Part shown: positions 6,009-57,963 of the stretch, piece after piece
Layout: each line of letters starts with the position of its first letter
How positions within the stretch are numbered: the stretch's first letter is position 1
Source of the DNA: Candidatus Omnitrophota bacterium
GTDB lineage: Bacteria > Omnitrophota > Omnitrophia > Omnitrophales > JACROU01
Direction of reading: 5' to 3'
Assembly (NCBI GenBank): GCA_029261035.1
Contig: JAJDCD010000004.1
Span: forward strand, 1-64,000
DNA length: 64,000 nucleotides
Translations under genes and position numbers: made by a program
The notes under the pieces: model-generated
Databases searched by the model: none
What the model was told of the DNA's origin: nothing
Seen by the model: the letters and a program-made list of their open reading frames with translations, nothing else

Positions 6009-6023
6009 TGAACGGCTCTCTTT

Positions 6024-6800
<777 letters not shown>

Positions 6801-7394: not shown

Positions 7395-7409
7395 AGCTAG
7401 TTACCGTCC

Positions 7410-24241: not shown

Positions 24242-25972
<1,731 letters not shown>

Positions 25973-25979
25973 CAAATCA

Positions 25980-26267
25980 CTATTCAAAAACTGCTAAGAT
26001 TTCATTTTCTTTTAAAATTTTATGCTTTGTTCCTTCAATAACGATTTCATCTCCGGAATATTTTCCAAAAATAACTTTATCACCTGCTTTAACTTCAAGA
26101 GGTTGAAAGCTTCCGCTTTCCAAAGATTTTCCAGGACCTACAGCAACAACTTTACCTTCCGTCTTTTCTTCTTTAGCTGTATCTGGAAGAATAATTCCAC
26201 CTTTGGTTTTTTCTTCAGCTTTTAAAACTTCAACTAATACTTTATCGCCTAATGGTTTTACTTTCAT
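25980..26267 (-). CDS. groES: Co-chaperonin GroES
   Basis: GroES (95 residues) caps the GroEL ring. MKVKPLGDKVLVEVLKAEEK, the mobile loop KTKGGIILPDTAKE and GDKVIFGKYSGDEI are diagnostic. The start at 26267 (AGGAGAAAGAAAA before ATG) replaces an ATG at 26357 whose first 30 residues (VTVTSVTVTDQ) come from a repeat. It is the only groES in the window and stands between two groEL genes, so it may serve both. Confidence 0.96.
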   Translation of the reverse strand: MKVKPLGDKVLVEVLKAEEKTKGGIILPDTAKEEKTEGKVVAVGPGKSLESGSFQPLEVKAGDKVIFGKYSGDEIVIEGTKHKILKENEILAVFE

Positions 26268-26300
26268 TTTTCTTTCTCCTTTGTCTATCTGAGTTATAAG

Positions 26301-26395
26301 TTGGTCCGTGACAGTCACTGAAGTGACAGTCACCACGAAACTAATCTTTGTTATCAAATTTAAAAGTGACTGTCACCTTGGTGACTGTCACTTTT
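26301..26395. repeat. Dispersed repeat family A, groEL-groES spacer
   Basis: Left block 26301-26336 is identical in pattern to the dnaE leader copy (TTGGTCC, two GTGACAGTCAC cores, CAC). Right block 26364-26395 has two GTGACTGTCAC cores separated by CTTG. The blocks flank about 27 bp and would form nested hairpins in the mRNA ahead of groES. Confidence 0.88.
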
Positions 26396-26430: not shown

Positions 26431-28107
<1,677 letters not shown>

Positions 28108-28405: not shown

Positions 28406-31400
28406 CTACGCTGCTTGAGCCGTTCTGATATACCCTTGGAATTCGGTCCAGAGAGATTGCATCAATTGGACGAATTGATCATTGAAGGTAAATACATTGT
28501 TCGCTGCACCCCTTTTAAGGGCAATTTTGATATCTGCTGCCAACTTGTCATAACCTCCTGCTACAGCTAGTTTTGCAGCAACAGAACCAGCAAATAACTG
28601 ATAGGTTGTCCACTGAGAATCTGACAATCGACTTCGGTCTACCGAAATTAACTGAGTTCCATTCAGAAATGCCGCATCTTCCAAATTACTTTTCTCAGCT
28701 AATACCACAAGATGTTTTCCGATATTTTGAGAAGAAACTTCAAGGTCAATGGATGATTTTAATGCATCCACCAATCGAGATAACTTCAAAGACTTTCCAG
28801 AAACATCTTTAAACTCACTGTTTTGTGTAATTAGTTTAATCGTACTCTTAACAGAATCATCAACAACATGAACCAAAACAAGTCTTTGTCCAAGAGCCTG
28901 CTTATCTTTATCGGAAAACTTTAACTGATTAAGAGCATCACCAAAAGCCTCGACATTAGCTTCAGGAGAATCTAAAACCACGACTGCAATATTACCCTCA
29001 TTCGAAAGCAAACTTGTTACAACTTCTTGAGGAGATGTCACCGAAGCCTGTCTTACGGTTACACCCAACTGAGGTTGTGAGGTTCCAAAAAGAGAAGCAA
29101 AAAGACTGTCTTTATTATCCCCCAGATAACCTTCCAAACCTCTAAGCGCTTTTATAACTTCATTCTCTAAACCAAAAATCTGTTTATACATATACTCAAA
29201 TTGCTTATCACTCAACTCAGGTCGTATCAGTTTACCAGCTGCATGCGTTGTTGCTTCAACAACCCCCTCCAATGTTAACCCATATGGATATTCAACAACA
29301 GCACCCAGTTTATTATTTAAAATACTAAGAATACTTTCTTCAACCCCCAAACTCTCTGCGGAAATAACAGACTCATCTTTTTCATCAACTGGCTTAGTTC
29401 CTTCTAATAAATACCAAGGTGTTCTCGCAACTTTTTCAATAAATTCAATCAGTTCACTACGACTCATTGTTTTAGGTAAATTAAAAGAAATTAACTTATC
29501 CCCCATAACAACAGATGGTTCAAAATTTTCCCCCATTAATGGTTTAAAAGCTCCTCTGCTTAATGTATCCACAATTCTTAACCCCAGTTTATTTGAAGTT
29601 GGAGCTATAAGAAATACAGAGCTTACGATGTCTTTCCCCTTACCATCAGAGGAATAACCAACAAAAAAATGAAGCCCTTGTTCTTTAGCAGCACCATTAA
29701 CATCAGATCCAAACAATTTAAAAAAATCAGGAAATAAACCGTCCTCATAATAAGACAGCCCATAAGAATACAAATCAGTATCAAATAGATTCACTTTCTC
29801 AACGGAAACAACGCCCAAACTAGACGCTTCAACAAACTTCGTCTTAGCCAATTCTTCTGCTGGGATTACAAAAGGAATTCCTTTTTTAGCAGCAGCTGTA
29901 GCTGCGATACGAATTGGACGTTCGGTTTGATACTGAATATCTTCATCAGAAATTATGCGGCCATTTACGTTCTCTACTTCTTGTGTCATCATTTCACTCG
30001 TTACCTCAGCAACATCTTGAATAGAAAGAAAGGATATTCTTCGCTCTGTCTGTAAAATTTCGCTTAATTCCATTAAATTCGATATCGATTGAATATCCAG
30101 CCCAAGCTTAACATCGCTCAGACCAGCTTCATCCAGTAATTCAATAACTTTATCAATGTCTGAATAGATTCGAACTAATTTTAATGCTATAGAAAATTCG
30201 ACGTCTGAAAACTCCTCAGACAATTGTTTAATAATGCTAAGTTGAATTTTAAAAAATTCAAGATCTCTATTTAAACTTTTAACAATACCCTTAACACCAA
30301 AATCAGGATTCGCTTCAAAAGGCTCATAACGCAAACCACCAATCAAACCTCTCATCCCGCCTGTTTTAAGTGTGTTTCCTTCCTCATCTTCTCCCACTTC
30401 TGTGCTGGTAGGCGCATCATCTGTCCCAATAACCAAAGATAAATTTCTTGATCTAGCATCGGTAAAAGCCTTATGTAGTGCTGATCTCATTACATTTTTA
30501 TAATGCAGCATCCCTTCTTCAAGGCTAAGCCCTAACGAAGTTAAAACTCCACCTGCACTTGCAGTAAGAACAAGCTTTTCAACGTCATCCATCGCATCGT
30601 CACGTTTAACAACTAGAGCTTGTTTTTTTACTGTCATCTCAGCTAAAGTCCTTTTCTCTTCATTAATCTGCTCTTCTATTTGATCAACAGACTCACTGCG
30701 AGATACTGCTTCTTTTCTTTTTATTAATGTTGATAACTCTTCTCTTAATACGTTAATCCTTCTATCAAGTGAATCAATTTCAATGACTAATGTATCTAAT
30801 TCCTCATCTAAGGTCTCTCTAGATTTCTCTACATTCAACTTATCTTGAGATAAATCTCTAAGTAACCATGGATGCACTTTCATATCATTTAAAAGAATAT
30901 CTCCTATGTCCATTCTTAGAGAAGCATCAACTGTAGGTTGAGCCTCTGAGTCAATATTAAAAGTAAAACCAGCCGCATCTTCAAATAACGCATACTTTTC
31001 TTGTGTTGAAGCACCACCTAAATCACTTATATTCTCAGCCGCTAAATTCTTAGCCACTTTTTCAAATGCCTCAATCACTACCGAAACTGAAGAATAACCT
31101 AATGCCGCCAAACCTTTTCCATATTCTTCCTGCCCTGGAACAGAAGGATCATTACCACAGTAGCCACACTTCACTATACTTGAAAGAATCAAATATGCTT
31201 TATCTCGATCACCTTCTTTTAAAGCTGCCTTCGCCTCTTTAATTGCACTTTCATTAAAAATCTTTGCTTGCCCCGTCACCATCGCATTCCAACGAATAAC
31301 TGCAGGACCATAAGCGGTTGCATTATTTTTTAACGAAGGATCTCCTGTGTTACGATCAATTCGGTAAATCGTTTGCAATGCATCATTACCACCCGTTGAA

Positions 31401-34400: not shown

Positions 34401-37400
34401 AATTTTCTAAAAGTAACCCTCAACGCCTGAAGCTCTTCTCTTAAAATAATAGCTTCTTCATCCCCATTTTCAACCTTATCCAAAAATTGTTCTACAGAAA
34501 GACGTGTAAATTTCTTATATTTTTTCAATAAGTTTTGAAGCTGTGTAATATTTTGAATCAAGCTATCAGAAATCACATCTGTCGTATTGTGCTCTAATAA
34601 TTGCTTAAAACCTTGAGAGCCTGTAGCAAAATTTGCCAAAGTCACTGCTCTAGGGGTATACATCAATTCCCCTGTATGTGCCGTCTTACCACCAAAATTC
34701 ACCTCATCTTGACGCTCAACTTCAACGTCCCATACAATAATGCGATCTTTAAATGCAGGATCAGCAACATATTCTGTTTTAAAACTATAACGCGCTGTCG
34801 TTGTCGTCTTATCTTCTATATCTTGAAGGCTTACTTCTGTCGTATCCGCTAATTTTTTCCTCAAGTCTTCCACATCTTCTTTTGTAATCACTTCTCTACG
34901 ATCTATTTTATCTTCGTGTTGATTATGAAATGCATCAAGCAACACTTCTAACTCTTCAACATTAAAATCCCTCGTTGCATAAAACCCGTATTCATTTCGA
35001 AGCATTTGGTATAAACGAGGAGCATCTAAAATACGTCCTCGATGCATAAAATCAGAGATAATCAATAAAATATCATTTTGATTTAAGAAATACCTATCCG
35101 AGACTTCTTTTGTATCATTCAACTTCACATTTTCTTTAATATCAAATATTTCTTTTGTATCTCTAAGTCGTGTTGAATGTTGACGTGTCAAACTCTGTTG
35201 CCCGCCTATTAATAAAATCCCTAAAACTTTTCTTTCCCCAGCACCCAACTCTTCACCTTGCTCAATATGCCCAGCAATCATTGCTAACCATGACATAGCT
35301 ATTTTCTTACGCCCTGTTTCTAACAAAAAGTCTACAAACTGCTGGTTTAATAATAAGGTTTTAGTTTCAAAATCAAAGTCATAGTACATATCTTCAGTTT
35401 TTCCTACAGCAACTGTAACTCCTTCTAAAACATCCCCGTATTTCCTAATATCTTTATATTCTTCTTTACTACCCCCATAAAGTCTAAAAAAGTTTACAGC
35501 TAAAGGTATCAGTTTTTGATGCTTATCAAATGCTACTCGCCCTTCTCGAATATCTTCAAAAGATAGAACTTGCATATCTTTCGATGGTTCAGAAATAACC
35601 ATAGCTGCTTTATATCTAAATTCTTTTGCTATTTCTTCTTCTGTTTTATGTCCATCTCTCAATTGTTCTGCCCACCAACTTAAATCTCCAGTAGTCATAA
35701 CTCCCGATTGACCTACAACTCGATAACCCGTTTCTGCAGCCAAAGTTCGTATGGTTAACCTAAACTGAAATTCCTTTATTAACTCATCTTCTGTTAATGC
35801 TTGAGTAGCCCACCATGCCAAATCACCATCCGATGCATGAGCAGAAAAAGGGTTTTCTGTAATTAAATCATATTCATCTGCAAGCGCTCGTATGGTTTCA
35901 AGATCTGTAACCTTTTCTCCCAAACTGCTAGCCCTACGTTCATAATTCTGCCCATTCCAATATAATTTTATTTCTCTTGTTCTTTTATCCGCTTGTTTTG
36001 TAAATTCAAATTTCAAAACAACATCTCCAGCTTCTTTTTCTAACGTTAAGATGATAGACTCTATATATATTCCCGTCCCAATAGATGTATTAGTTCCTAT
36101 CACTCCTCCTCCAGGCGCTGGAAATATGTCTTTTAATTTTCCATGCAACATATTTACTAACAAGCTTACATCCCCTATAATTACCGGAACTTCCCCTTTT
36201 TCTAGACTCGCTAAACCCTCTCTTACTTTATTAATTACTTCTTCCTTTTCTCCCAAACTGGATCCTACTTGCTTCTTAGCATCTATCGCTTGTTGAGCAC
36301 GATGTGCAGCATACGCTTTAGCAAACTCAGTAATCTCTTCTTGATTAAAAAGAAATCGATACTGTTTTCTCTCAATCCATTGATAAATGTTAAATGCTTC
36401 ATTTGGAATAAAACCATCTTTAGGTCTAAACCATCGTGAAAAACTAAATTTATGATTTTTAATTCTTCTTTTTTGATCTTCAAGAGAAGCCTTCACATCA
36501 AGATATTGAACATTCTTAATGTCAACTTCTACAAAATGATTGTCTCTCAATAATTGAGGAGTCATCAGAGTAATATACCCAATTCCATGTCGGACTGGAT
36601 CATACATATCTAACGCAACCAATTCATTTATAACTTTGCTCGATTTTGCTTCGAGAAATGTTTGAGCTTGTAATAATCGATCCGCTTGAGGATCCCTAAT
36701 ACGAGCTGAGGTCACAGCTTGAGTCCCATCATAAGCAGCTGCAAGAATACGAACCAATTTTTCTAAATAAGGGCTGTCTTTCAAACGTTCCACTAAGCTT
36801 TCCGGAGCTCCCGGTATAGAAGAAAGACTAATCTCAGCTTTTCGCTTTTCAGCTTGTATTTGAATTAACTGATTAATTAAATCTTTTTCATCAAGTCCCC
36901 TACTAGCAAGTTCTTCAAAATCAGATTCTTTAAGAGGTTCAGAAAATAAATTTTTATCCGTTAAATAAAATCGTTCCGCTAAATACTGTACTGTTTTGGG
37001 GTTTTCAATTACCCCAAGGCTTGAAGCTTCCGAAGACGCATCTTCACCTTCCAAAGCGGCTAAAAGACTTTGCCGTTCACCTGGCTCTTCAGTAAAAATC
37101 TCGATATAACCTTTAATTTCAGCCCATTCTGTACTTGTAAATAAAAGTCTATTTGTTTCCAAAGATGGTAAAGCATCCATCTCCACCTTTTCACCTATAC
37201 GAAACAAAGGAACACCTCCAACTGCACCGGAGTAAGCAACAGCTCCATCTACTTCCATTGGTTCTTTAGGGGATAATAATGCTATTGGGTAGTCCTCTTT
37301 AGCAATACCTGCTTCTTCATAAACTGGAAGTTTTTTTATTTCTGATTTAAATTCTTTTTCTTTACCTGAAAGATATTTCAAAATCAAAGCAACTTGATCT

Positions 37401-40400: not shown

Positions 40401-42532
40401 GCATCTTGTTTTTCTAATATGGAATTAGCCCCTAAACTAGAAGCTAAAGAAACTCCTAATTCCAAAGTTTGACGTGATTCCAGCCGGATTTGCACTTCGG
40501 AAGTTTTAGGATCAACCCAAGCGTTAAAGATGTAGAGCTCCCTATTAGCAACAATTGAAAAACGTCCTTGAACACCCTTCTCTGAAGCTTCAATAGATAG
40601 AAAATTGAGGTCAGATATGCTTTGAGGCAATAGTCCCTTTCCTCTTAAAGCAAGAACGCTCGCATTCAATTGACTCAATACACTCACTGCTTCTCTGCGG
40701 GATACCGATGAAATAAATTGAGGAAAAGAGCGAATCATCGCTCCCAGAACTGCTTCCCCTTGAAAATTCGGTTTATCAACATCCAAATACGAAGGAGACA
40801 AAATACGAGCAACGTCAATGAACTGCATTGCAGGCACTGAAACCGTATTTAAAATATTAGAGGAAGTACTTGAAACATCTTCTAATTGAAGAAGACGATC
40901 TAAAAATGGCGTATTCCCTAAAATTAAATTGAGATAACGATCTCTCGTAAACTTCTGAGTCATTTGCGGAACAACGACCACATAGCCCATTTGACTCTTT
41001 TTCAATTCTTCTTTAATACCTTCCGTATGAAAACCACCCGAAATCAAAACACTTTTCTTAATATTGTCTTTCTTCATTTTTGAACTTAAATTAGAAACAA
41101 ATGCCTTGTCTCTTTCTTTAGCTCCTGAATAAAAAGCCTTCGCCAAGCCAAACACTTTTTCCACTTGTTCTAAATCACTTTTATTCTCTATTTCTTTTTT
41201 TAAATTTCGTTTAACTTTAAGCGCATTCAATTCAGAGAGCAAGGATTGAGGAGTTAGATTTAAACTAGAAAAATTCTCAACGTCGGTTCTTACCGCCTCT
41301 AACGAAAGAACTCTTTGCGTTAACTCCGTTTGAAAGAAAAGATCAATCCATTGCCTTTGATCTTCGTTCGAAACCAAAACATCCATCAATAAACGTTCTA
41401 CCGTTTCAATTTCATTAAAAAGCTGTGAAGATACCATTTCTTTTTTAGCTATCAAATATTGGGCAAAACCCATTAATGCTTTTTTGTCAGAAACAGAAAA
41501 ATTGTTCTTAAGAGCAAAATCAAATAAAAGCTCAAATACAAGGCGAGGGTCTTGATGCAATAAAGAATCTAGAGAGGGTTGAAATTGATTGTTTTTTTGA
41601 AGCGCTTTAAATTCTTTGAGTAAGAGTTGCACTAGGTTCACATTCGAGGCCCTAAACCGATTCAACAAAGAAGCTACTTCATCCGATTCTCGTTTAACCT
41701 CTTTAAAATCAAGTCGAGCCTCTAATTCTTTAAGAGAAAAAATTCGAACAAAATTTGGATAACTTTTTTGCTGTTTAGGGTCCGATAGATCTGTTTTTAA
41801 AACGTCAAAACTCCATTGCAATAAATCATTCACATACGTGAGTAAATTTATACGTTGATTGTCATGTGCTGATTTACGGTCAACAAACTTTTTCAAGTCC
41901 CCTACAATAACGCGTCCTTTAACCAAATTGAGATAGCTTTGGACATCTCCTAAAAATTGGTCCGATTGGGGTTTTAATTTGAGAACATTTCTAAAATCAC
42001 GTAAATTTTGGATATACAAATCCCTATCTTCAACACCAAAAGCATTCACTTTCTTCGGCTCAGCAATAGCCCATGCTTCTGCTCCCGATAGCATCCCTTG
42101 CTTTAACAAAGAATCTGCTATTTTTAGATTCCACTCTTGATTGGGATATAAATTTAAAATAGACGGATCTATCTTAGAATCCGCAGATTCCAAGCCAACA
42201 TGTCCGATGTCATGTTTATCTAAAAAGTACTTAAGGAGAGATTTAATATTTTGCTGTGCTTCTAAATGTGCGTGTGCATCTTGGATATAAATAACTAGAG
42301 GGGTATCTTTATCTGCATTCAATGGCAAATAAACATCCTCTACCTTCCCTAACTTCTCTGAAATATTCAGATGATCTAAAGGAAAAGAACGCAAAGACTC
42401 CTCTTTAGGCTGAAATAATTCAAGACTTTCTAACGGGGCTGACCAAGCCAAAGTTGTAGTCGTAAAAAGAACAACAACGCACAGAGCCATTCCTCTCATA
42501 AAATTTTGCACAGCATTATTAAATAATGTCAT
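28406..42532 (-). CDS. Giant fusion: signal peptide, TraB-like module, glucose-6-phosphate isomerase, PEP synthase, shared C-module
   Basis: About 4708 residues. A signal peptide (GMALCVVVLFTTTTLAWSA) leads into a TraB/ChaN-like module (about 80-530; VIYIQDAHAHLEAQQNI, SGGFHTEGIKEEL). Residues about 740-1480 are glucose-6-phosphate isomerase: TGIGGQH, SSKSGSTDE, VGGRW, GTGDQH. Two homologous units follow (about 1488-1660, 1674-1840), then unassigned segments with WW-type tandem repeats (2210-2310). PEP synthase spans about 2600-3830: FGGKTAHTGEL, RSSAVGEDSEEASFAG, the phospho-histidine loop GGQNSHTMIVAS, MMTEIPTNA, GYCGNDPS. A coiled coil (3894-3987) and a possible degenerate second PEP-utiliser barrel (about 4055-4155) precede the C-module (4393-end), shared with the next giant. 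ASSLG-like motifs recur at about 702, 1657, 1836, 2092, 2203, 4240 and 4393. AAAGGAG is 10 nt before the ATG at 42532; the ATG at 42541 is too close. Enzyme assignments are strong; export and purpose are inferred. Confidence 0.85.
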   Translation of the reverse strand: MTLFNNAVQNFMRGMALCVVVLFTTTTLAWSAPLESLELFQPKEESLRSFPLDHLNISEKLGKVEDVYLPLNADKDTPLVIYIQDAHAHLEAQQNIKSLLKYFLDKHDIGHVGLESADSKIDPSILNLYPNQEWNLKIADSLLKQGMLSGAEAWAIAEPKKVNAFGVEDRDLYIQNLRDFRNVLKLKPQSDQFLGDVQSYLNLVKGRVIVGDLKKFVDRKSAHDNQRINLLTYVNDLLQWSFDVLKTDLSDPKQQKSYPNFVRIFSLKELEARLDFKEVKRESDEVASLLNRFRASNVNLVQLLLKEFKALQKNNQFQPSLDSLLHQDPRLVFELLFDFALKNNFSVSDKKALMGFAQYLIAKKEMVSSQLFNEIETVERLLMDVLVSNEDQRQWIDLFFQTELTQRVLSLEAVRTDVENFSSLNLTPQSLLSELNALKVKRNLKKEIENKSDLEQVEKVFGLAKAFYSGAKERDKAFVSNLSSKMKKDNIKKSVLISGGFHTEGIKEELKKSQMGYVVVVPQMTQKFTRDRYLNLILGNTPFLDRLLQLEDVSSTSSNILNTVSVPAMQFIDVARILSPSYLDVDKPNFQGEAVLGAMIRSFPQFISSVSRREAVSVLSQLNASVLALRGKGLLPQSISDLNFLSIEASEKGVQGRFSIVANRELYIFNAWVDPKTSEVQIRLESRQTLELGVSLASSLGANSILEKQDALVIGEALHTVLDAGGDSGLKKRFTQGGYEQEGYGVPEGAVNDGSHAMGDEGNEGYYVNGGKEIFLGVVKMMREFFANRNKKLSAVDPDKKIRLIIKTGIGGQHTPFEGIATMFGQLKDPSEKESIIVGEYELGKNFEVSIESQLAQLGADWEEVALIPSSKSGSTDETMMVFESIFKVLLKKVAEKKALDGVSFSNLVFNTLNEINVNKEGVEQKKLFTINKDWFLTSSFVELLALKAKDKGLEISQENIKDVLGTVLGNMFFETVDTPEKSRLSAFIRNSGLKEELGENAPGFGAMFNNVGGRWTADLHMMTFLSYYDLDSKRYWEVRKAGIEKVRGGTHIGNRLAHHVLDGGYKDIALVVPDEAFWFGKAIEQNFNESIWQAGFANLVAVRQSDWGAQKKNYFQDDKRLVVTLGNFEVSSADYNVFQIPSEPFENHSLLQAVNQSSLVPERKLRLIRQYTAEKLGEWFTTFYGMTYTAGTRLIARDIRSQGLDPNFVDVSDLDNPITRILQENLYLRQPFVELGKGILKTELEALQEEERGNPGAVKRRYDEVSKKAVIRELLGGVPGYERRVQRIFDDTALSLLLSQAKIFTEKDGRKIIPFIYLEGDRFYSLRDALINMGMEWVMQGTGDQHISYQQVLSQPQKYFPIIISFVPKQPLEANPAIGFAKSYLHGLPSHLVRDAFAEASYKALAELRKDQGGAGLFIRLDDSRANINLLLEGFGEIFSRNKQIEEAGKQEKKALFIPYLDLSIPDDTDSYLVRRRGSSAIQTLQNLKGRLVEKPVLSEVITQLAYMSGPYTVNNHNIADSDKIKGYLEALRTVVIEKKEALKSEIESLPLFDPSALKSVLGKGGLFLIHPKTNGEGDLQLVYVSQNGSASIYADVLNRASAQYEWKGGAQGTLDRFQQQGYRVLISTEDQTVLSLAFDIKDNPEKYKTEASSLGILELTGGLTGITGLSAFNKRLKNKPILLEVVLRLALIYLENKVEKFGDTNNGLTDQVALILKYLSGKEKEFKSEIKKLPVYEEAGIAKEDYPIALLSPKEPMEVDGAVAYSGAVGGVPLFRIGEKVEMDALPSLETNRLLFTSTEWAEIKGYIEIFTEEPGERQSLLAALEGEDASSEASSLGVIENPKTVQYLAERFYLTDKNLFSEPLKESDFEELASRGLDEKDLINQLIQIQAEKRKAEISLSSIPGAPESLVERLKDSPYLEKLVRILAAAYDGTQAVTSARIRDPQADRLLQAQTFLEAKSSKVINELVALDMYDPVRHGIGYITLMTPQLLRDNHFVEVDIKNVQYLDVKASLEDQKRRIKNHKFSFSRWFRPKDGFIPNEAFNIYQWIERKQYRFLFNQEEITEFAKAYAAHRAQQAIDAKKQVGSSLGEKEEVINKVREGLASLEKGEVPVIIGDVSLLVNMLHGKLKDIFPAPGGGVIGTNTSIGTGIYIESIILTLEKEAGDVVLKFEFTKQADKRTREIKLYWNGQNYERRASSLGEKVTDLETIRALADEYDLITENPFSAHASDGDLAWWATQALTEDELIKEFQFRLTIRTLAAETGYRVVGQSGVMTTGDLSWWAEQLRDGHKTEEEIAKEFRYKAAMVISEPSKDMQVLSFEDIREGRVAFDKHQKLIPLAVNFFRLYGGSKEEYKDIRKYGDVLEGVTVAVGKTEDMYYDFDFETKTLLLNQQFVDFLLETGRKKIAMSWLAMIAGHIEQGEELGAGERKVLGILLIGGQQSLTRQHSTRLRDTKEIFDIKENVKLNDTKEVSDRYFLNQNDILLIISDFMHRGRILDAPRLYQMLRNEYGFYATRDFNVEELEVLLDAFHNQHEDKIDRREVITKEDVEDLRKKLADTTEVSLQDIEDKTTTTARYSFKTEYVADPAFKDRIIVWDVEVERQDEVNFGGKTAHTGELMYTPRAVTLANFATGSQGFKQLLEHNTTDVISDSLIQNITQLQNLLKKYKKFTRLSVEQFLDKVENGDEEAIILREELQALRVTFRKLDDKKKKQPLSKMIQEVIGVLSEVILDIQDYYPAKGHKIDGITDYFAFLGKSLDQRVVEIKEKIKSNETEVSIVKSRISELKKDIEILNYINHRPELFLEDVQTVVPLAIDLLRAYRDDNTLYENIRDFFKNRTDKQLFQIKWGETEDELVDHDEATNTFVFNQAFIESVILVNSIKIVGNNLKIARKQSEIEASQKTIQRLEEEAKEYSEQRHDLTQRNSNKFLYTARNLVVPPKVEEEIKKNLMILAERLKISLDKLVLAIRSSAVGEDSEEASFAGMQDTSIFVTATSPEWVQKVNANGVVRMDETGVDNFITEWVFNQASLFNNRAIDYRFLEGLPTFDDSVEISTLFQRMFLSKLSFVAMTADKQTGYPSISSNIHEGQGEKIVSGDESGSKFILSLDGQAVIIRQKGERRYKIVETEDRMGKVELPLTEEEKREFSVTDQRLLGQYAELLSEIDRFYGQGYVDLEGAFRPKEESKGTSIKLVGEDGEILKDERGFDRYDWNVVSTQARPETVISLQDPDVIKLKRVVVTDQAFKKAELEGNVLDFTFIAKTGGTAQGEVAWVLDKTDPAELAKAKGKILATFQSDPDMNRAMLEAKGVIAILGGQNSHTMIVASEYGLVAVTGTSDQLMTVLKEGMQITVDAERGKILLGYDHKVKIAGNDFSVRDIPNTPYGSTRSASIVASPEKSLASYATRNIPSYEGVGLKRLEIDLANIGIYTDALLAYDNMVAQEKGELEEGVASKYILNRKENVKLIQFIEEQIAGYNSGQHFYQSIITQGILATAEPLNPDFVEVAYRYQQIQDKQLRLAVKDIVEQMYEVGLGHSSDPLLTSLKILKEAQDDPNVRVLIEEIIGLLDKHLKIRLDDRKSDEYKAVKGSELFVKEELNAMKGYRGLELLLDSPTMEWQLEAMIRVAMLKRHKIGIFAPIVRRPSDLKQMIERFLKVGENLGISNVELANLVQIGMMTEIPTNAININDFLAVVQSFRDAGIPIRFFTSTGGNDALQTIYRIDRNTGDPSLKNNATAYGPAVIRWNAMVTGQAKIFNESAIKEAKAALKEGDRDKAYLILSSIVKCGYCGNDPSVPGQEEYGKGLAALGYSSVSVVIEAFEKVAKNLAAENISDLGGASTQEKYALFEDAAGFTFNIDSEAQPTVDASLRMDIGDILLNDMKVHPWLLRDLSQDKLNVEKSRETLDEELDTLVIEIDSLDRRINVLREELSTLIKRKEAVSRSESVDQIEEQINEEKRTLAEMTVKKQALVVKRDDAMDDVEKLVLTASAGGVLTSLGLSLEEGMLHYKNVMRSALHKAFTDARSRNLSLVIGTDDAPTSTEVGEDEEGNTLKTGGMRGLIGGLRYEPFEANPDFGVKGIVKSLNRDLEFFKIQLSIIKQLSEEFSDVEFSIALKLVRIYSDIDKVIELLDEAGLSDVKLGLDIQSISNLMELSEILQTERRISFLSIQDVAEVTSEMMTQEVENVNGRIISDEDIQYQTERPIRIAATAAAKKGIPFVIPAEELAKTKFVEASSLGVVSVEKVNLFDTDLYSYGLSYYEDGLFPDFFKLFGSDVNGAAKEQGLHFFVGYSSDGKGKDIVSSVFLIAPTSNKLGLRIVDTLSRGAFKPLMGENFEPSVVMGDKLISFNLPKTMSRSELIEFIEKVARTPWYLLEGTKPVDEKDESVISAESLGVEESILSILNNKLGAVVEYPYGLTLEGVVEATTHAAGKLIRPELSDKQFEYMYKQIFGLENEVIKALRGLEGYLGDNKDSLFASLFGTSQPQLGVTVRQASVTSPQEVVTSLLSNEGNIAVVVLDSPEANVEAFGDALNQLKFSDKDKQALGQRLVLVHVVDDSVKSTIKLITQNSEFKDVSGKSLKLSRLVDALKSSIDLEVSSQNIGKHLVVLAEKSNLEDAAFLNGTQLISVDRSRLSDSQWTTYQLFAGSVAAKLAVAGGYDKLAADIKIALKRGAANNVFTFNDQFVQLMQSLWTEFQGYIRTAQAA

Positions 42533-42795
42533 TGGACACATTCTCCTTTAAAGAATAGTTTGAATTTTCTTCGGACACACGAATACTAACAAGATGATTA
42601 TTTGGAAATAAATAGAAATTGAGATTTAAAAAAAACTCAGAAATTAGATTTAAGAATAGAAATCGAAACAAGCTTTCAATTCTCCCCTATCACATAGCCT
42701 TTATGAAAAAGCTGTATTTTAAGTCATCCCTGAAAAGCAACTGTCACATCCTAATGACAGGAAAGACTAAAAGCAGTTAACTTTTAGCTAGTACT

Positions 42796-42861
42796 GTCAT
42801 CCCCGCGAAAGCGGGGATCCATAAAGCACATAAACTAGATTCCCGTCTACACGGGAATGAC
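42796..42861. repeat. Dispersed palindromic repeat family E in the 329-nt gap between the giant genes
   Basis: GTCATCCCCGCGAAAGCGGG begins a first hairpin and GATTCCCGTCTACACGGGAA a second; the ends GTCAT and ATGAC are complementary, so the 66-bp element is palindromic overall. A related GTCATCCCGG..CCGGGATCC unit lies at 52344-52373. Apart from this element, the gap 42542-42870 is A+T-rich with no gene or clear promoter. Confidence 0.85.
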
Positions 42862-42870
42862 AAATTTGTA

Positions 42871-45800
42871 TTATGCAGATTCGCGAATACGTTGATATCC
42901 TTGAAATTCGTTCCAAAGCCCTGACATCAACTGCATGAACTGATCACTAAATGTAAATACGTTGTTACCACGAACTTTCTTCAAAGCTCCTCTAACATCG
43001 GTTGGCAACTTATCAAAACCACCCACAACAGCTAGTTTCCCAGCTAATGCCCCTGCAAATAGTTTATAAGAATCCCATTGCACATCACTTAAAGCTTTAC
43101 GCTCTACAGAAATAAGTTGTTTTCCTTTTAAACGATCGGCATCCGGAAGCAACTCTTTCTCTGCCAAGACAACTAAGTGTTGATTCAACCCCTTACTTGG
43201 AGCGCTCACATTCAAAGTTTGAGATAAATTATTTACCAGTTTTGTCAGCGTTACCTTGCGCCCTAAAATGTCTGTGAACTTCGAGGTTAAAATACTTTCT
43301 ATCGCATCTTGAATACCTTCAACACTAAACTCTCTAGGTTCCACAAAAACAATTCTATCTGAAATGGATTGTTTCTCTTCTTCAGGCAAGTCTAAAGCAG
43401 CAACTTCTGATGTGAAACGAGAAAGGTCTTGATTTAATTGGTCTAAAACCAACACCGTCAAACTACCTTCATTTGCAAGAGCCCCCGTCACAACTTCTGA
43501 AGCAGAAGTAATCGATGATTGTCTTACAGTCACACCTAACTGTGGTTTAGAGGTTGCAAATAATGAAGACAACAAACCTGCAGGATTATCCTTAAGATAA
43601 CGAATTAAAACATCTGTGGAATCAACATCATTCTCAGACACTCGATTCAACTCTGCAAGTAACGCATCCGCACTGTCTTCTGCATATACAGAAGAAGCAA
43701 AAGCATTCCCTGCGGCAATCATCTGTTCTGGCGTTAAAAAGTAATCACCTGGTAAATTAGAAACATCCCCAGATGCCAAAGCATCCAGAATAGACTGTTC
43801 TCCCAAAAGAATTTGTTGAACACGGTTTATTTTCGCACCACCCAAAGAATTCGCTTCAACACCAGCCTCAGACTGTGGTGCTGCAATAGGAGTCCAGCTA
43901 TAACCTTCTCGAGAATCTACTTTAACATTGAAGTACTCGACCCAACGATGCAATTCTGTTTGTGAAGTACGAACAATACGAACCAAAGGAACAACAAACT
44001 CTCGATTATTAATTTCTCTAATTCCTGGTAAATTCAAAGCAGGGTTCGCTGTAACTGGAACAAGTGTCGCTTCAAAGTTTCCATTAAAATTATGAATAGT
44101 ATCAAATATCTTTTTAGGTGTTGATGGACTTTTTGACCTTTTGGGTAAAATTTCACCCGCTAACTCTCTCTGAAAAGAACCTATCTTACTCGATTCTTGT
44201 CTGGAAAAGTTATAAGCAAATTGAGGTTCTATACTTTGAGCATTCTCCAAACCTGCTCGAGACATCACCCTAAAAGAACCATAAGAACTTTCACGGCCTG
44301 CAAGCGTCATAGCCGTTAAAATTTCAGCAATACCTGATGTACTTAGAAAAATATGAATTCGATCATCCGAATTCCCCCAGACGGCTTCTAATGCTGGTTC
44401 TAATGTTCCATGCTGTATTTTATCAATTTCAATACCGGATTCCTGTTTAAACTCTTCCAACGCATTAATACGTGCGGTTTCATGCTGACGATCACCAACC
44501 GAATCAAGGACATGTACTGTAACATTTGAAAGTTGTCCTGGTTGATTGGAGGTTGGGTTATAAACAACCCCATTCACACCCGCCCAAAACTTAATTGTTT
44601 CTATAGGATCTGCATCTGGATCAATAGGATTCTCCGCCAACTGCTCTAGAATTCTTTGTTTCATCTCAGAACTAACACCCTTCTTAAAACTTCCAAAAAA
44701 AGCATTTCCATATAACATTGGGAAAGCTCTAGGAGCATTAACTGAATCTTCAGGCTCATCAAAAACAATAAATGAAGATATAGCACCAGGCTCATCAACC
44801 TCTCCAGATCTAAGCAAAGCACGTTTCTTATCTAAAGGGTTTACAATAATTCTGGCAATATCGTCTTTACCACTTCCAATCATATGACCAGGGTCCAACT
44901 TAGACTGATCTTTTACAGATCCACCCGTTGCAATAGGAAGCACCGAAAGGTCTCTAGACCCCAATAAGCCTTTTATTTGATCTGTTGTTGTAGAATCTAA
45001 AAGACCTGTTAGCAAATGATCATCCAAAGGTTTCTGTAACGAAACACCTCTAAACCTTTGAACCACCGGAACCATAGATGCAGCTGCTACTAAATCTCTA
45101 GATAATGAAGCTTTTGATAAAACTTCTGTAGGTATTTCGTTTTGAGAAACTAAATTATCTGCATTCAGAACAGAAACCAACTCCTGTGGTGTTGCAGGAA
45201 TTCCCTTACCATTCACAACAGGTCCTGCAATATACCCATTAATTAAATGCGCCATAACGGTAAGTTCGTTACGAATTGTATTCATATACTCTGGAGCAGC
45301 TCTTCTTTTGACCAAACTATTTCTTACAGTCTCTCCAAAAACAAACCCAACATTATCTTTCATAGCACCATTAAGATAATCTCTAGCTTCATCATCACTT
45401 TTTGCCTGCTCTCTCATAAGGTCAAGCATAGCACGAGTCATATCGGGTAAATCAGAAACACCTTGCGTCGCTTCTTTATTATAATGTTTAGCTGCAACCA
45501 AAGCTTCTGGGTACGATAAGCCCATTACTTCTTGAAAAATACCCATAAGAATCAATTGATAATACGCATGATGATCATCCGTTGTCACTACCTTTTCTAC
45601 AAAACTAAAAGGTATATTAATATTTAAAAACCCTTCATCTGCAATGTATTGAGGCAACATAAAGTATTGATGGCCCTCTGTTGAAGTAAAAGACATAACA
45701 TCCTTAATACCCGTAACCTGCAAACTTTTAAAAGACCTTCCTTTATGGTACAGACTTGGGAAACCTTGTTTTAAATCTCGTGCTCTTTGTAGAACAGGCA

Positions 45801-48800
45801 CTAAAAATTCATCAACCATTCTTTTTAAATATTTTTTTTGCTCAGATGTAAAAAAAGCAGGTGGCTGTTTCTTTAACAAATTAATGAGCGGAATATAAGT
45901 CACATTAGGGCTTGCTATAATCGTTTCCTTCCCTACGACTTGATCCTTAATAATTGCTTCAGCATCTCCATTATAAGTATGCAAATAAGGCTGACCTGGT
46001 AACTTAACCGCACTAACAACCGAAGGACCATAATCCGTATCATCTTCAATAAGTCCACGACTTAAAAGTGCTGCATACTTCTCAACATCAATCACACGAT
46101 GGGTATAACCCATTTCGTTGTCATACCATTCTTTAATCTGAATCACAACATAGTCTTTGTCTGGAGAAACAGTAACAGATGTTCCTGATGGATCAAAGAT
46201 TGAAGATTCGGATCTATTATGAAGCTGACTCGTATTCTGTATTTCGTCATATCCAAAAATACCTCTTAAGGCATCCGAATTGGCCCACGAGTAAGCTTGA
46301 GCATTTACTTGTTCAACCGTAGGGACATCATTTATATTATTAATACCTATTCTCAAACTGGTCCAAACTGCAGAACCATCTGGATTAGCTAATCTTCGAG
46401 AAGCACCTTCAAACTTCCCTTTAAATAAAGGGTCCGCTTTAACATAAGCCTTGCTCGCCCCTGTTGTAGAAATAGCCCCTAACATTGTAGGGTCATTAAC
46501 AAGAGATGGACCTTTTTTAGGAACTCTTGACGCTGAACCTAAGCTCGATTGCGACAATGTATAGCCATGTTCTGTAATGAAAACAGCATCAAACATTGAA
46601 GGAAAACCCTCATCCAACAAATATCCATTCAAGCGGCTCAACCCAGGACCAACACCATTGGTTGTACAAGAAGCACAAGAAATAGTTTCCACCACCAGAG
46701 GAACTTCTTCAGGTATAGCACCATATGCACTTGTTGGAATAATTCGTTGATATTCTTCTTTTGCCATGTGAGCTCTCTCAATTTCTTCTCGAATATCTTC
46801 AACATGATTAATTCCAAACACAATGTTCTTAATACCATCTTTCTTAGCTGGATATGTTTTTATTATTCTTTGAACACCTGCAATAGCTAATGAATGATGT
46901 AACGGTCTATTAAAACCATCATCTTCTCCAACAGCATCAAATAATACTTCGATGTTAATAGCCTCCTCATTAGGCCCTTTAAGACCTCTCAACATGGTTA
47001 CCATATCTCTAATAAATTTAGCAGCAGCATCTTCTTTATTACCCGACCTAGCTAGACGAATATTAAATATAGGTATTTTATAAACAACTTCGTCTGTTTG
47101 CTTATCTTTAAGAACCAAAAAGTCTTTTCCTGGCCCTTCTTTTACAGCTTCAGCAACCCAAGGATATGCCTTGTGAACAATGTCCGCTTGCATCTGTTGT
47201 ACCAACGCAATAACATCAGAAACTCCATTTAGAAAAGCCGGGTAATAGTTAGGGTCTTTATAAAGCAATCTCAAGATACCTTTTCCTATACGGCCTCTAC
47301 CCCCCGTTATCCCATAATAAATACGTTCCCCTTCAGGAAGTTGTGCTGGCATATATTTAGTATCACTAGAATCTACAACTGGAATCGAATTAGAAGGCAC
47401 ATTATCCTGAGAAGTTGTTTCGATAGGATAATTTGATCGATCATTTACAAGCATATTCATAAATGTTTGAACACGACCCAGCTCGTTACTCCAAACAGGT
47501 ATCAATACCTGCCCCTCTCCTCCAACAATCATATCCTCTATCCCAATAATAGCTAATTCTCTATGATCCGATAACATTAAGGACTCTAAAGGCTCTCCTT
47601 CTTTTTGTAAACGCACGAAGTTTTCACTACCCGTTCTTTTTAAACCTGCTTGCAATGCAGCAATAATTTTTTTCTTTCTCTCTTCAGGGTTTAATTTTAA
47701 TAATTCAGAATCTGCTTTAAGCTGAATGGTAAAGTCAACAATCGAAGCTCCTTTAAATGGAGCTGCAAAGTTCATAGAATTCAAGGAAGCTTGGACCAAC
47801 TCTCCATCATTTGTTTTGTTATATCCAGCCCATTCAGGAAATTCTAGACTTAACGCTGTTCCCATACCCGCTCTTAAAGTTTGCAGTTCTCTGTCCATTA
47901 ATTCTGCTGGTGTCTTCACACTCAAACCTGTGTACGCTGAAATATCTTCATTAAGATCAGATCGTTGTAATAGTGCTAATACATTTCCTGCAACCTGAGT
48001 TCCTAAAGAAGGTACAAAATGCACTTCATCTTCACGAAGTAAAACTTCAGAATTTTGTCCATATATAATAGGTCTTTTTGTTTTAAGGTCTGATAATGGA
48101 TTATAAGAAATAACCGAACTTAATGATGATTTAGAACGCAAATCTTCTAATCGTTTCAATAAATTTTCTTCTGATTCACCCGAGTTACGAGAGTCAGACA
48201 TGTCAATAAGTGTGTCATAACCATCCACATTATCATTATGAGGTAATTCTGGATTTAATTTAATTCTCTTATCATTAATAGACAAATAAAACACACCCTC
48301 TTCTTCAATTAATAATAGTTTCCCTGGCAACCTTCCAAATACCGTGTTACTCACAACCAAGTTAAAAAGTGATTGAGGGTTAGCAACACCAAAAATTTCA
48401 TTCAAAGAAATGTTTGGATCTCCAATAAGAGCCCATAACATCGAAATTAAGTCTCTGTTGTATAAGGTGTATGGATTCACATTCGTATTTTTTGGAAAAT
48501 TTGATGCAACAGATCTAAACTCTTCTACTTGAGGTTCAGATAATTGAGTCACTAACTGAATCTGACTTAAATCTTGATAATAGTCAGGGGCACCTACGTT
48601 AATAGCCAATTGAATAGGTTGATCAAGCACTTGTTCTCTAGCCACAGCGACACCCAAACTATTTGCTGAAGCAACACCACTATAAAGAACATTCGCTTCT
48701 CCCGTAACTGGGGAAGTTTCTAAAATAATAGAAACCAATCTAGACGCCCCATTACCAGAAACTCTAAACACAGACTCCGAAACTCTTGAAGAATGGCTTC

Positions 48801-50571
48801 GAGCTGCTTCCAATTCAATACGATCAAAAGCTGCAAGATTAGCATTTAATTTCAAACGGCTATTTACGCCTGAAGAAATAACAGGAAAAACAGAATCCCC
48901 TACCGTATTAAAAGTATTATGAACACCCAACGCGATACTTTCTAAATGAAATTGAAGCAATGATGTTGGGTCATCTAAATAAGTTCCAGCACTCACTCTT
49001 GCACGGTCTACTGTATCCCGAGCCAAAGGTTTTAGAGAGTCAAACTTTTGTTTGGTCATTAATTCTCTGTACTGATTAGGATTAAACTGAGAAACATTTG
49101 GAGAAACAATCACATAAGACCAATCACTAGCTCTAAGTAAAGAGCTAATTCCTTCACTATGAAAACCTCCAGCAACCAAAGCCATTTGCTTGATTTGTTT
49201 ATCAGAAGTATGCTGTTTTAGATTACTAACAAAAGATTCATCACGAGAACGAGCCAATAAATAAAATTCCATAACATCATTTAGCAAAAGATTCATTTTG
49301 AATTCTTGATCTTCATTCAATTGCACCAATCCTTCAAACAATGAAATTAATGTAGTTTCTTTTAAAACGCGTGAAAGCTCTTCTAAATCTTTTCGAGTTA
49401 GCTCTAACTTAAAAGCATTTTCAATCAACTGAATCATTTCAGACTGAACAAAAACCTTCTTTGCTTTTTCAGCAATAAGTAACTTTTGATAAATATGATT
49501 TTCAATAGAATCAAGCTCTTCAAATAACTGTGTCCCCACCAACTCTTCTTTCAAGATCAAAGAAGAAGAAAACTGAGTTAACTGTGGATAAGACTTCCAA
49601 TCGATGGAAAGACCTTCTGTAGCAAGGTACAACTTATCAAAATAATGACGTGCTCCTAAAGGAAACTGAGATTCACCTAAATTATTGAGAATAAATTCTT
49701 TCTCAGGAGAGTCTAGCAACTTTTCTGACAATACAACTTTCAATGCTTCTACTTCTGCTTTTAACTTCTTCATATTCACATTCTTACCAGAGTCTTGAAG
49801 TTTCAAAATACGCACTAAATGAGGAAAGCGTGCTTGAGCATCAGATTTACTTAGATCCATACTCAACATTCTTTTAGTCAGCTTAGAAACCGTGTTGATA
49901 TAAGCAATCGTTTGATCTGAAGTATTAAATGCTGCCTCTTTTTGTTTTTCTAACTCTCTTAACTTTACATCATAATAGGTTTTTTTTAATTCTTTGATTC
50001 TTGCTTTAACAGGCTCTAATAGGGGAAGGTAAAGAGCTGCTTTTTTACTAATATCTCTATAAGCTTTAATGTTCTTTTGATATAACTTCCTGTCATCCAC
50101 ACCAACAACATTGGTTTGACCCTGAGTCTGATAAGCAAACCATTCTGTTCCAGACAACTCACCTTTATCTACTAGCTGCTGCAACACTTGTTTATTAATT
50201 TCAGGCAAAGGAAGAAAGTTTAAATTAATAGGATCAATCGGTGTATCTGCTGCCTCAACACCCACATGATTGATTTTATGTTGATCAAGAAGATGATTTA
50301 AAATCGAAGAGATGTTCTTTTGCGCACTTGGATTTGTATGTGCGTCCTGAATAAATACTAGAGTAGGTTTTGCTTGATCCCCTACATGAACGTCTTCAAT
50401 CACCCCGAATTTTTCTGGAATCGATATATCTAAAATTTTTGATTGCTGGTTTGCAACTTGCTGTAGCACATTCACAGATGGATTTGCATAAACGGAATTT
50501 GATAATGTAAATACGGCGATGAGCGCCCAAACTATAGACTTGAACTCCACAGATGTTTTACCTAATGACAT
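42871..50571 (-). CDS. Giant fusion: signal peptide, TraB-like module, partial plus complete GAPDH, GlpX-like pseudo-bisphosphatase, shared C-module
   Basis: 2566 residues. Signal peptide IVWALIAVFTLSNSVYA, then the same N-module as the preceding giant (FIQDAHTNPSAQKNI near 72; AGGFHSEGISSLL near 466) ending at ANSLG (about 633). Residues about 925-1040 resemble the C-terminal half of GAPDH (ASIVDFTIQL; WSNELGR for WYDNE.GY). A full GAPDH follows (about 1080-1505): GGRGRIGKG, active-site SCASCTTN (Cys about 1301), TEHGYT, STTGASKA, SSIFDPSGT, WYDNEMGYTHRV. Residues about 1505-1780 are unassigned. About 1790-2200 align in order with class II (GlpX) fructose-1,6-bisphosphatase, but the metal motifs are lost (NPLDKK for DPxEGT). 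A second ANSLG (about 2238) opens the 330-residue C-module (QLGVTVRQSS ... FTFSDQFMQLMSGLWNEFQG). GGGGAGG precedes the ATG by 8 nt. It lies directly upstream of the other giant on the same strand. Confidence 0.85.
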   Translation of the reverse strand: MSLGKTSVEFKSIVWALIAVFTLSNSVYANPSVNVLQQVANQQSKILDISIPEKFGVIEDVHVGDQAKPTLVFIQDAHTNPSAQKNISSILNHLLDQHKINHVGVEAADTPIDPINLNFLPLPEINKQVLQQLVDKGELSGTEWFAYQTQGQTNVVGVDDRKLYQKNIKAYRDISKKAALYLPLLEPVKARIKELKKTYYDVKLRELEKQKEAAFNTSDQTIAYINTVSKLTKRMLSMDLSKSDAQARFPHLVRILKLQDSGKNVNMKKLKAEVEALKVVLSEKLLDSPEKEFILNNLGESQFPLGARHYFDKLYLATEGLSIDWKSYPQLTQFSSSLILKEELVGTQLFEELDSIENHIYQKLLIAEKAKKVFVQSEMIQLIENAFKLELTRKDLEELSRVLKETTLISLFEGLVQLNEDQEFKMNLLLNDVMEFYLLARSRDESFVSNLKQHTSDKQIKQMALVAGGFHSEGISSLLRASDWSYVIVSPNVSQFNPNQYRELMTKQKFDSLKPLARDTVDRARVSAGTYLDDPTSLLQFHLESIALGVHNTFNTVGDSVFPVISSGVNSRLKLNANLAAFDRIELEAARSHSSRVSESVFRVSGNGASRLVSIILETSPVTGEANVLYSGVASANSLGVAVAREQVLDQPIQLAINVGAPDYYQDLSQIQLVTQLSEPQVEEFRSVASNFPKNTNVNPYTLYNRDLISMLWALIGDPNISLNEIFGVANPQSLFNLVVSNTVFGRLPGKLLLIEEEGVFYLSINDKRIKLNPELPHNDNVDGYDTLIDMSDSRNSGESEENLLKRLEDLRSKSSLSSVISYNPLSDLKTKRPIIYGQNSEVLLREDEVHFVPSLGTQVAGNVLALLQRSDLNEDISAYTGLSVKTPAELMDRELQTLRAGMGTALSLEFPEWAGYNKTNDGELVQASLNSMNFAAPFKGASIVDFTIQLKADSELLKLNPEERKKKIIAALQAGLKRTGSENFVRLQKEGEPLESLMLSDHRELAIIGIEDMIVGGEGQVLIPVWSNELGRVQTFMNMLVNDRSNYPIETTSQDNVPSNSIPVVDSSDTKYMPAQLPEGERIYYGITGGRGRIGKGILRLLYKDPNYYPAFLNGVSDVIALVQQMQADIVHKAYPWVAEAVKEGPGKDFLVLKDKQTDEVVYKIPIFNIRLARSGNKEDAAAKFIRDMVTMLRGLKGPNEEAINIEVLFDAVGEDDGFNRPLHHSLAIAGVQRIIKTYPAKKDGIKNIVFGINHVEDIREEIERAHMAKEEYQRIIPTSAYGAIPEEVPLVVETISCASCTTNGVGPGLSRLNGYLLDEGFPSMFDAVFITEHGYTLSQSSLGSASRVPKKGPSLVNDPTMLGAISTTGASKAYVKADPLFKGKFEGASRRLANPDGSAVWTSLRIGINNINDVPTVEQVNAQAYSWANSDALRGIFGYDEIQNTSQLHNRSESSIFDPSGTSVTVSPDKDYVVIQIKEWYDNEMGYTHRVIDVEKYAALLSRGLIEDDTDYGPSVVSAVKLPGQPYLHTYNGDAEAIIKDQVVGKETIIASPNVTYIPLINLLKKQPPAFFTSEQKKYLKRMVDEFLVPVLQRARDLKQGFPSLYHKGRSFKSLQVTGIKDVMSFTSTEGHQYFMLPQYIADEGFLNINIPFSFVEKVVTTDDHHAYYQLILMGIFQEVMGLSYPEALVAAKHYNKEATQGVSDLPDMTRAMLDLMREQAKSDDEARDYLNGAMKDNVGFVFGETVRNSLVKRRAAPEYMNTIRNELTVMAHLINGYIAGPVVNGKGIPATPQELVSVLNADNLVSQNEIPTEVLSKASLSRDLVAAASMVPVVQRFRGVSLQKPLDDHLLTGLLDSTTTDQIKGLLGSRDLSVLPIATGGSVKDQSKLDPGHMIGSGKDDIARIIVNPLDKKRALLRSGEVDEPGAISSFIVFDEPEDSVNAPRAFPMLYGNAFFGSFKKGVSSEMKQRILEQLAENPIDPDADPIETIKFWAGVNGVVYNPTSNQPGQLSNVTVHVLDSVGDRQHETARINALEEFKQESGIEIDKIQHGTLEPALEAVWGNSDDRIHIFLSTSGIAEILTAMTLAGRESSYGSFRVMSRAGLENAQSIEPQFAYNFSRQESSKIGSFQRELAGEILPKRSKSPSTPKKIFDTIHNFNGNFEATLVPVTANPALNLPGIREINNREFVVPLVRIVRTSQTELHRWVEYFNVKVDSREGYSWTPIAAPQSEAGVEANSLGGAKINRVQQILLGEQSILDALASGDVSNLPGDYFLTPEQMIAAGNAFASSVYAEDSADALLAELNRVSENDVDSTDVLIRYLKDNPAGLLSSLFATSKPQLGVTVRQSSITSASEVVTGALANEGSLTVLVLDQLNQDLSRFTSEVAALDLPEEEKQSISDRIVFVEPREFSVEGIQDAIESILTSKFTDILGRKVTLTKLVNNLSQTLNVSAPSKGLNQHLVVLAEKELLPDADRLKGKQLISVERKALSDVQWDSYKLFAGALAGKLAVVGGFDKLPTDVRGALKKVRGNNVFTFSDQFMQLMSGLWNEFQGYQRIRESA

Positions 50572-57648: not shown

Positions 57649-57963
57649 TTATTTAGATTTTCTGAAATATGTAACTACGTCAAGGATGAATCCAAGAAAA
57701 AAACCGCTAATGCTATAAATCAAAATTGTAACTATACAGCTAACCCAAAAAAACATGCGTGGGGAAAGAAACTCATAAAAGCCCATCAACTTTGACAATT
57801 CAAACCCCAAAGACCAATGCACATATGTAAATGGAAAAGCAAAAATTAGATACGGTGCTGCAGAATGAGGACTATAGACAGAAATCAATTGATGTATAAT
57901 GAAAAAAAACAAAACAAACAGTGTAAAAACAATAGTCGATAAAAATGAAAGTTTGAACTTCAC
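57649..57963 (-). CDS. Small three-helix membrane protein, candidate immunity protein (GTG start)
   Basis: The 104-residue protein starts MKFKLSFLSTIVFTLFVLFF and has three predicted membrane helices (about 6-29, 36-54, 72-95). I do not recognise a family. Its GTG start shares one base with the TAG stop of the giant YD-repeat gene (TAGTG), with GGAGG nine nt upstream inside the giant's last codons, so it is translationally coupled. In polymorphic toxin loci a small immunity gene directly follows the toxin tip, and a membrane immunity protein fits. That role is inference. Confidence 0.65.
   Translation of the reverse strand: MKFKLSFLSTIVFTLFVLFFFIIHQLISVYSPHSAAPYLIFAFPFTYVHWSLGFELSKLMGFYEFLSPRMFFWVSCIVTILIYSISGFFLGFILDVVTYFRKSK

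Follow-up and report, generated by a model that had tools for sequence, protein, structure and literature searches.

The 64,000-nucleotide stretch of DNA analyzed here (the window) comes from a 2.70-Mb genome of Candidatus Omnitrophota (G000). Two adjacent giant ORFs were identified at exactly the positions originally predicted: giant 1 (P0001; 28406 to 42541; 14.1 kb) encodes 4711 amino acids (aa) and giant 2 (P0002; 42871 to 50571; 7.7 kb) encodes 2566 aa. Both of them, and all of their features listed below, are on the minus strand. As had been claimed, each protein starts with a signal-peptide-like segment, which covers approximately aa 1 to 35 in giant 1 (42437 to 42541; hydrophobic, with small residues at the end) and was recognized by a simple hydropathy test in giant 2 (50482 to 50571). 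The segment is followed by an N-terminal module (N-module) at aa 60 to 560 of giant 1 (40862 to 42364) and aa 40 to 540 of giant 2 (48952 to 50454). A C-terminal module (C-module) occupies the final 300 aa of giant 1 (28409 to 29308; ending in AQAA) and the end of giant 2 (42874 to 43746; ending in RESA). In pairwise comparison, the two N-modules share 32% identity (E = 3.9e-53) and the two C-modules 48% identity over 222 aa (E = 6.6e-61), so the significant similarity of the ends, on which the idea of a common carrier depended, is present, and the idea survives.

Between these modules, giant 1 contains a glucose-6-phosphate isomerase (PGI) unit (aa 705 to 1470; 38132 to 40429) and a PEP synthase unit (aa 2912 to 3834; 31040 to 33808). 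The chain is punctuated by a five-residue motif, [AG]xSLG: ASSLG at aa 700 to 704 (40430 to 40444), immediately at the N terminus of the PGI unit, and at aa 1656 (37562 to 37576) and 1839 (37013 to 37027); GSSLG at aa 2093 (36251 to 36265); ASSLG again at aa 2204 (35918 to 35932) and 4239 (29813 to 29827); and AESLG at aa 4395 (29345 to 29359), where the C-module starts. The sites at aa 2093 and 2204 flank, on both sides, a small recurring module (aa 2098 to 2203; 35933 to 36250; IGDVSLL...LYWNG) that was detected by self-comparison. A module of ~110 residues of this type (IGDVSLL...FPTPDG...LYWNG) is also present in giants L040, L041, L051, L057, L058, and L076.

In giant 2, ANSLG is located at aa 636 (48652 to 48666) and aa 2240 (43840 to 43854). 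The ends first assigned to the N-modules (residues ~700 and ~633) coincide with the motif sites at residues 700 and 636. The GAPDH unit (aa 1085 to 1510; 46042 to 47319) is preceded by a partial second GAPDH C-terminal-like stretch, recognized by eye (approximately aa 960 to 1060; 47392 to 47694; ..VWSNELGRVQTF..), and the stretch preceding GAPDH is conserved together with GAPDH in other giants. A domain conserved in relatives (44872 to 46041) lies between the GAPDH unit and a GlpX-like (class II fructose-1,6-bisphosphatase) unit (aa 1901 to 2200; 43972 to 44871).

All four enzymes named in the original prediction were recovered, with evidence of differing strength. The PEP synthase unit matched PF01326 (PPDK_N; 6e-30), PF00391, and PF02896, all above the Pfam cut-off; its ATP-grasp, swivelling His, and PEP-binding domains are in order, and the catalytic His and the ATP-site motifs are retained. 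GAPDH was identified on the basis of Gp_dh_C (PF02800; 1.1e-5, above the Pfam cut-off) and TIGR01534 (4.8e-27), and its catalytic Cys (SCTTN, within SCASCTTN) and His (HGYT, within EHGYT) are present. The GlpX-like unit did not itself reach PF03320 in a direct profile search and was assigned through a homologue, L181, which matches PF03320 (1.1e-19) and to which P0002 is similar (26% identity; E = 1e-16); in giant 2 itself, the signature of GlpX is degenerate. For the PGI unit, neither Pfam (PF00342, in P0001 and two relatives) nor a PDB sequence search gave a match. The AlphaFold2 model of the unit (mean pLDDT 71) matched PGI structures (Foldseek E of ~1e-6, prob 1.00; VIA-align Z of up to 15.0), which made up nearly the whole match list, and the PGI-like motifs GIGGQ, SKSGSTDET, GGRW, and GTGDQH were found by eye in this order. 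Stand-alone ORFs, as well as units of giants from other families and classes, share ~50% identity with the PGI unit, and this conservation, which far exceeds that of the N-modules, speaks for function. One stand-alone PGI relative (L193 in G018; 5595 to 7867) is broken into two overlapping frames, perhaps by a frameshift or an assembly error.

The two giants belong to a large family. The N-module is present in 45 ORFs of the genome, ranging from 497 to 16,198 aa and totaling 139,587 aa (15.5% of the genome; two or three of the ORFs end at contig ends). A signal-peptide-like start was found in 41 of the 45 by the simple hydropathy test, and family self-comparison showed that the middles of the ORFs are mostly unrelated to one another, which supports the proposed common carrier with interchangeable cargo. 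The N-module was also found in 54 of the 58 genomes of relatives searched, all independent assemblies, many of which have at least 20 copies, and the open frames extend up to 24,618 codons. PGI and GAPDH units also occur in giants with the N-module that belong to other families and classes, and the arrangement of P0002 recurs in genome G002 at ~41% identity. All 29 loci retrieved in a scan of genome contigs with an N-module pattern, built on an alignment of three sequences, belong to Candidatus Omnitrophota. The exceptional length of the ORFs and the partial degeneracy of two cargo units could be taken as signs of misassembly or of decaying gene fusions. However, the presence of the N-module and of the same arrangement in independent assemblies, the frames that stay open for as many as 16,198 codons, and the level of PGI identity across families refute this explanation, which we regard as scarcely credible.

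The view of the cargo as gluconeogenic holds for the four named enzymes but not as an exclusive description, since kinases, regulators, and other domains are found elsewhere in the family. Pfam matches revealed (i) isocitrate lyase, malate synthase, GTP-PEPCK, and a Glu-dehydrogenase-like unit in a single protein, L063; (ii) phosphoglucomutase and UGPase in L075; (iii) a carbamate kinase in L044, with its GGNA retained; (iv) a PAS-HisKA-HATPase-receiver protein in L045 and Ser/Thr protein kinases in five stretches of L074; (v) WD40 in L050 and L059 and LRR in L054; (vi) a macrodomain and a histidine phosphatase in L038; (vii) ARMT1-like and methyltransferase units in L062 and DnaJ and phosphoesterase units in L060; and (viii) HTH and sigma-region-4 units in L034 and L070. 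Much of the cargo gave no Pfam match (for example, in L035, L039, L048, L058, L064, and L119), and the content listed here is therefore a lower bound.

Together with the window giants, the family cargo accounts for a large part of the pathway leading from acetyl-CoA to UDP-glucose. Catalytic residues are retained where checked in isocitrate lyase (KKCGH) and phosphoglucomutase (TASHNP and DPDADR), whereas the cargo PEPCK has Ser in place of the P-loop Cys; given this replacement and the degenerate GlpX signature, some of the cargo may be inactive. The genome also has ordinary PEPCK and GAPDH genes besides the cargo copies, and its only full isocitrate lyase is that of L063. In L063 (G000:C4:35000-46600), isocitrate lyase is joined to malate synthase with no junction motif between them. 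Bifunctional isocitrate lyase-malate synthase proteins occur in nematodes and Euglena, and L063 resembles these in having the two enzymes joined as one unit. Unlike them, the unit of L063 is part of a bacterial giant of the exported type and is followed by PEPCK and the Glu-dehydrogenase-like unit.

The C termini of the giants also have common features. With iterated profiles, the C-module (~300 residues) was recognizable in 24 of the 57 C termini compared, including those of both window giants, the others being below detection, and a single-sequence search detected it within this genome only in the two window giants. Among the 44 giants that could be judged, 42 end in Ala and 33 in Ala-Ala, compared to 5 and 1, respectively, of the 81 controls. 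Across the phylum, the tail follows a pattern of Leu at position -15, Ala at -9, Ile, Leu, or Val at -5, and Ala at -4, as seen in relatives preselected for a final AA or SA. In sortase and exosortase (PEP-CTERM) substrates, the C-terminal motif precedes a transmembrane helix and a basic tail. The giants were rejected as such substrates on the basis of their polar-amphipathic C termini ending in AA and of a motif that is internal and repeated.

The cassette originally proposed for this locus thus stands as a common carrier, but the junction motif had been missed, and it turns the cassette into a probable polyprotein. The 45 giants contain 209 [AG]xSLG sites, versus 7.9 expected. The background, measured on the window and on ten 15-kb stretches of the genome, comprises 4 sites in 88 further ORFs of this genome (44,942 aa; 3.5 expected) and a single site in the 11,621 aa of the other genes of the window. 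A site is located after the N-module (median residue, 582) and another ahead of the C-module (median of 264 residues from the end), and the remaining sites divide the middles with a median spacing of 415 residues, some of the spacings being very short (18 to 30 aa). Recognized domains contained 0 of 73 sites, with 10.1 expected. The isocitrate lyase/malate synthase junction and the borders between units in giant 2 lack the motif. Elsewhere, it coincides with native protein ends: the cargo PEPCK can be aligned over its full length with the ordinary PEPCK of the genome and has the motif at both native ends, the native N terminus of PGI is the motif position, at which a stand-alone PGI relative also begins, and the native N termini of carbamate kinase and of a macrodomain coincide with the motif. 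Two hallmarks of a polyprotein, several complete proteins in one ORF and a recurring motif at the unit borders, were consequently found in the giants.

The cargo has clearly been swapped among giants and genomes, as would be expected if the motif were a DNA-level recombination or shuffling site from which giants are built out of cassettes. However, the 209 sites are encoded by 194 different 15-mers, with mild codon bias and no nucleotide word in common. This diversity points to selection on the protein, the level at which alone the motif is conserved; it largely refutes a recombination site, which we consider highly improbable.

The motif word differs by genome. In giants of five genomes from two other families, xSLG is replaced by R[S]E[LVM]R-type words, with 65 sites in 9 proteins of G021, 46 in 4 of G015, 26 in 5 of G036, 25 in 6 of G022, and 17 in 4 of G018, and xSLG occurs only 0 to 4 times in each of these genomes. 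Conversely, RxE[LVMI]R is absent from G000 and from its family member G001, which have 209 and 38 xSLG sites, respectively (247 in total). In three loci of a further lineage (L104, L106, and L109), the word is GARLA, often SGARLA, and some giants of more distant classes, such as L185, contain none of these three words. In an N-module tree, a FastTree reconstruction with long branches from which only the interleaving and not the fine branching was used, the members from xSLG and RSExR genomes are interleaved, and G000 requires 17 changes and the motif at least 9. The word is thus a property of the genome and not of the N-module, and the simplest reading of this is a single trans-acting recognizer in each genome.

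The location of the motif outside domains would also be expected of a linker, and the giants could accordingly be uncut surface multi-enzyme or scaffold proteins in which the motif serves as a linker, a hinge, or a docking peptide to which a partner such as a secretion or anchoring machine binds. Giant ORFs of Omnitrophota have indeed been proposed to encode adhesion or coat proteins, and the peptides of one of them increase upon attachment (PMC10066038). Linkers, however, are not normally one five-residue word in 45 proteins and another word in the next genome, nor do they explain a motif at native protein ends, and metabolic enzymes and kinases would be odd coat material. We therefore consider uncut scaffolds unlikely.

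A polyprotein could also be processed in cis by its own N-module. Tiki relatives have been reported as proteases, and the structure predicted for the N-module (pLDDT 83) points to this fold. Foldseek alone gave no significant match for the module, and in VIA-align the first four rows were EreC (Z = 8.9), HopBA1 (8.9), ChaN (8.9), and EreC (8.8), followed by a Tetrahymena complex IV subunit (8.6) and a Bacillus cereus Ere-like protein (8.2 and 8.0); six of the first seven rows were thus EreC, HopBA1, ChaN, or Ere-like, and the first clearly unrelated row had a Z of 6.8. His90, Glu118, Arg477, and His505 (giant 1 numbering) are invariant across 25 aligned N-modules. H90 and E118, as well as R477 and H505, are 28 residues apart, the same spacings as those of the catalytic residues H50, E78, R261, and H289 of EreC (PMC7979712). 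As judged from the model, which has the alpha/beta fold common to EreC, ChaN, and HopBA1, the N-module is a predicted member of the Ere/ChaN/Tiki fold, and the match in active-site residues and spacings to EreC suggests that it is probably an active hydrolase. It resembles the Ere, ChaN, HopBA1, and Tiki-fold proteins (PMC7979712) in fold and in the His-Glu-Arg-His active site and differs from them in having a large helical insertion and in invariably occupying the first position in a giant protein of the exported type, with 45 copies in this genome.

The hydrolase fold, the active site that is intact in all aligned N-modules, and the constant position as the first unit would all suit a protease that cuts its own chain. 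However, the interleaving of N-modules from xSLG and RSExR genomes would require many cis-acting proteases to switch specificity together, and the Ere members are esterases, while ChaN binds haem (PMC7979712). Cleavage in cis consequently appears rather improbable.

Taken together, we consider it likely that the giants are exported polyproteins whose junction word is recognized, and probably cleaved, by a trans-acting factor specific to the genome. The signal-peptide-like start would direct export, and the leading N-module would contribute to export, to processing, or to both. In each genome, a single trans-acting factor, most likely a protease, would then recognize the junction word and cut the exported chain there into separate proteins. 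The site of action of the products would be one that provides ATP, GTP, and NAD, in the simplest case another cell (host or prey). Cargo enzymes that need these nucleotides keep their catalytic residues, which makes a second cell or a nucleotide-containing compartment likelier than the periplasm; such a site of action is the most likely one, although it is the weakest step of the scheme. Action in another cell would fit the host-dependent traits that have been proposed for Omnitrophota (PMC10066038).

More tentatively, and as a possibility that we hold short of probable, the phylum may export whole metabolic routes (from acetyl-CoA to UDP-glucose through the glyoxylate shunt and gluconeogenesis), kinases, and regulators as polyproteins, which would be cut by a dedicated protease whose specificity has switched between lineages and delivered to run or reprogram another cell or compartment. 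The N-module, the C-terminal signature, and the junction word give the giants a shared grammar from which the start and end of each protein can be predicted, so that their contents become readable one unit at a time. If cleavage does occur, the giants would constitute a bacterial polyprotein system with a rare genome-wide switch of the junction code (AxSLG, RSExR, and GARLA lineages), and the question becomes why second copies of central-carbon enzymes that require ATP, GTP, or NAD are exported.

To our knowledge, polyprotein systems of such scale are known only from viruses and from eukaryotic precursors. The giants resemble viral polyproteins and eukaryotic prohormone precursors in having several complete proteins per ORF and a recurring short junction motif. 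They differ in being chromosomal and bacterial, in occupying dozens of loci per genome, in having an export signal of their own, in carrying housekeeping-type enzymes and regulators as cargo, and in that their cleavage is a prediction. In Plasmodium (PEXEL) and Toxoplasma, a short export motif is shared by many unrelated exported proteins and is read by one trans-acting protease. The giants are similar in having one short motif on many unrelated proteins of the exported type, for which a trans-acting protease is proposed here; unlike in these parasites, the motif is repeated along the chain at unit borders and varies among related bacterial lineages. Our literature search, which covered open papers, found no report of polyproteins in Omnitrophota or of bacterial polyproteins of this kind, which suggests a polyprotein system of virus-like layout not previously described in bacteria.

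Giant ORFs of Omnitrophota have been described as very long, poorly conserved, and possibly adhesive, with few annotated domains (PMC10066038). The giants studied here are from the same phylum and are likewise very long with few annotated domains; beyond that description (PMC10066038), an N-module, a C-terminal signature, a junction motif, and enzyme cargo were identified in them. Assignment of the window giants to adhesin or coat giants (ORFs of >20 kb with adhesion domains) was rejected on the basis of their lengths and the absence of Pfam adhesion domains.

Other giant ORFs were also observed. The window ORF at 57963 to 63911 encodes a 1982-aa protein with YD repeats that has neither the N-module nor the junction motif and is a giant of another kind. 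The control stretches of G000 contain ORFs of 4150 to 4972 aa (L204, L206, and L208) that lack the N-module and show no enrichment of the motif, and the genome therefore has at least one further class of giant proteins. Directly downstream of the two giants, on the same strand, are two full-length Cpn60 (GroEL-type) genes (24242 to 25912 and 26431 to 28101), with a small ORF between them (25980 to 26357). It is conceivable that this pair provides a dedicated chaperonin for the giants.
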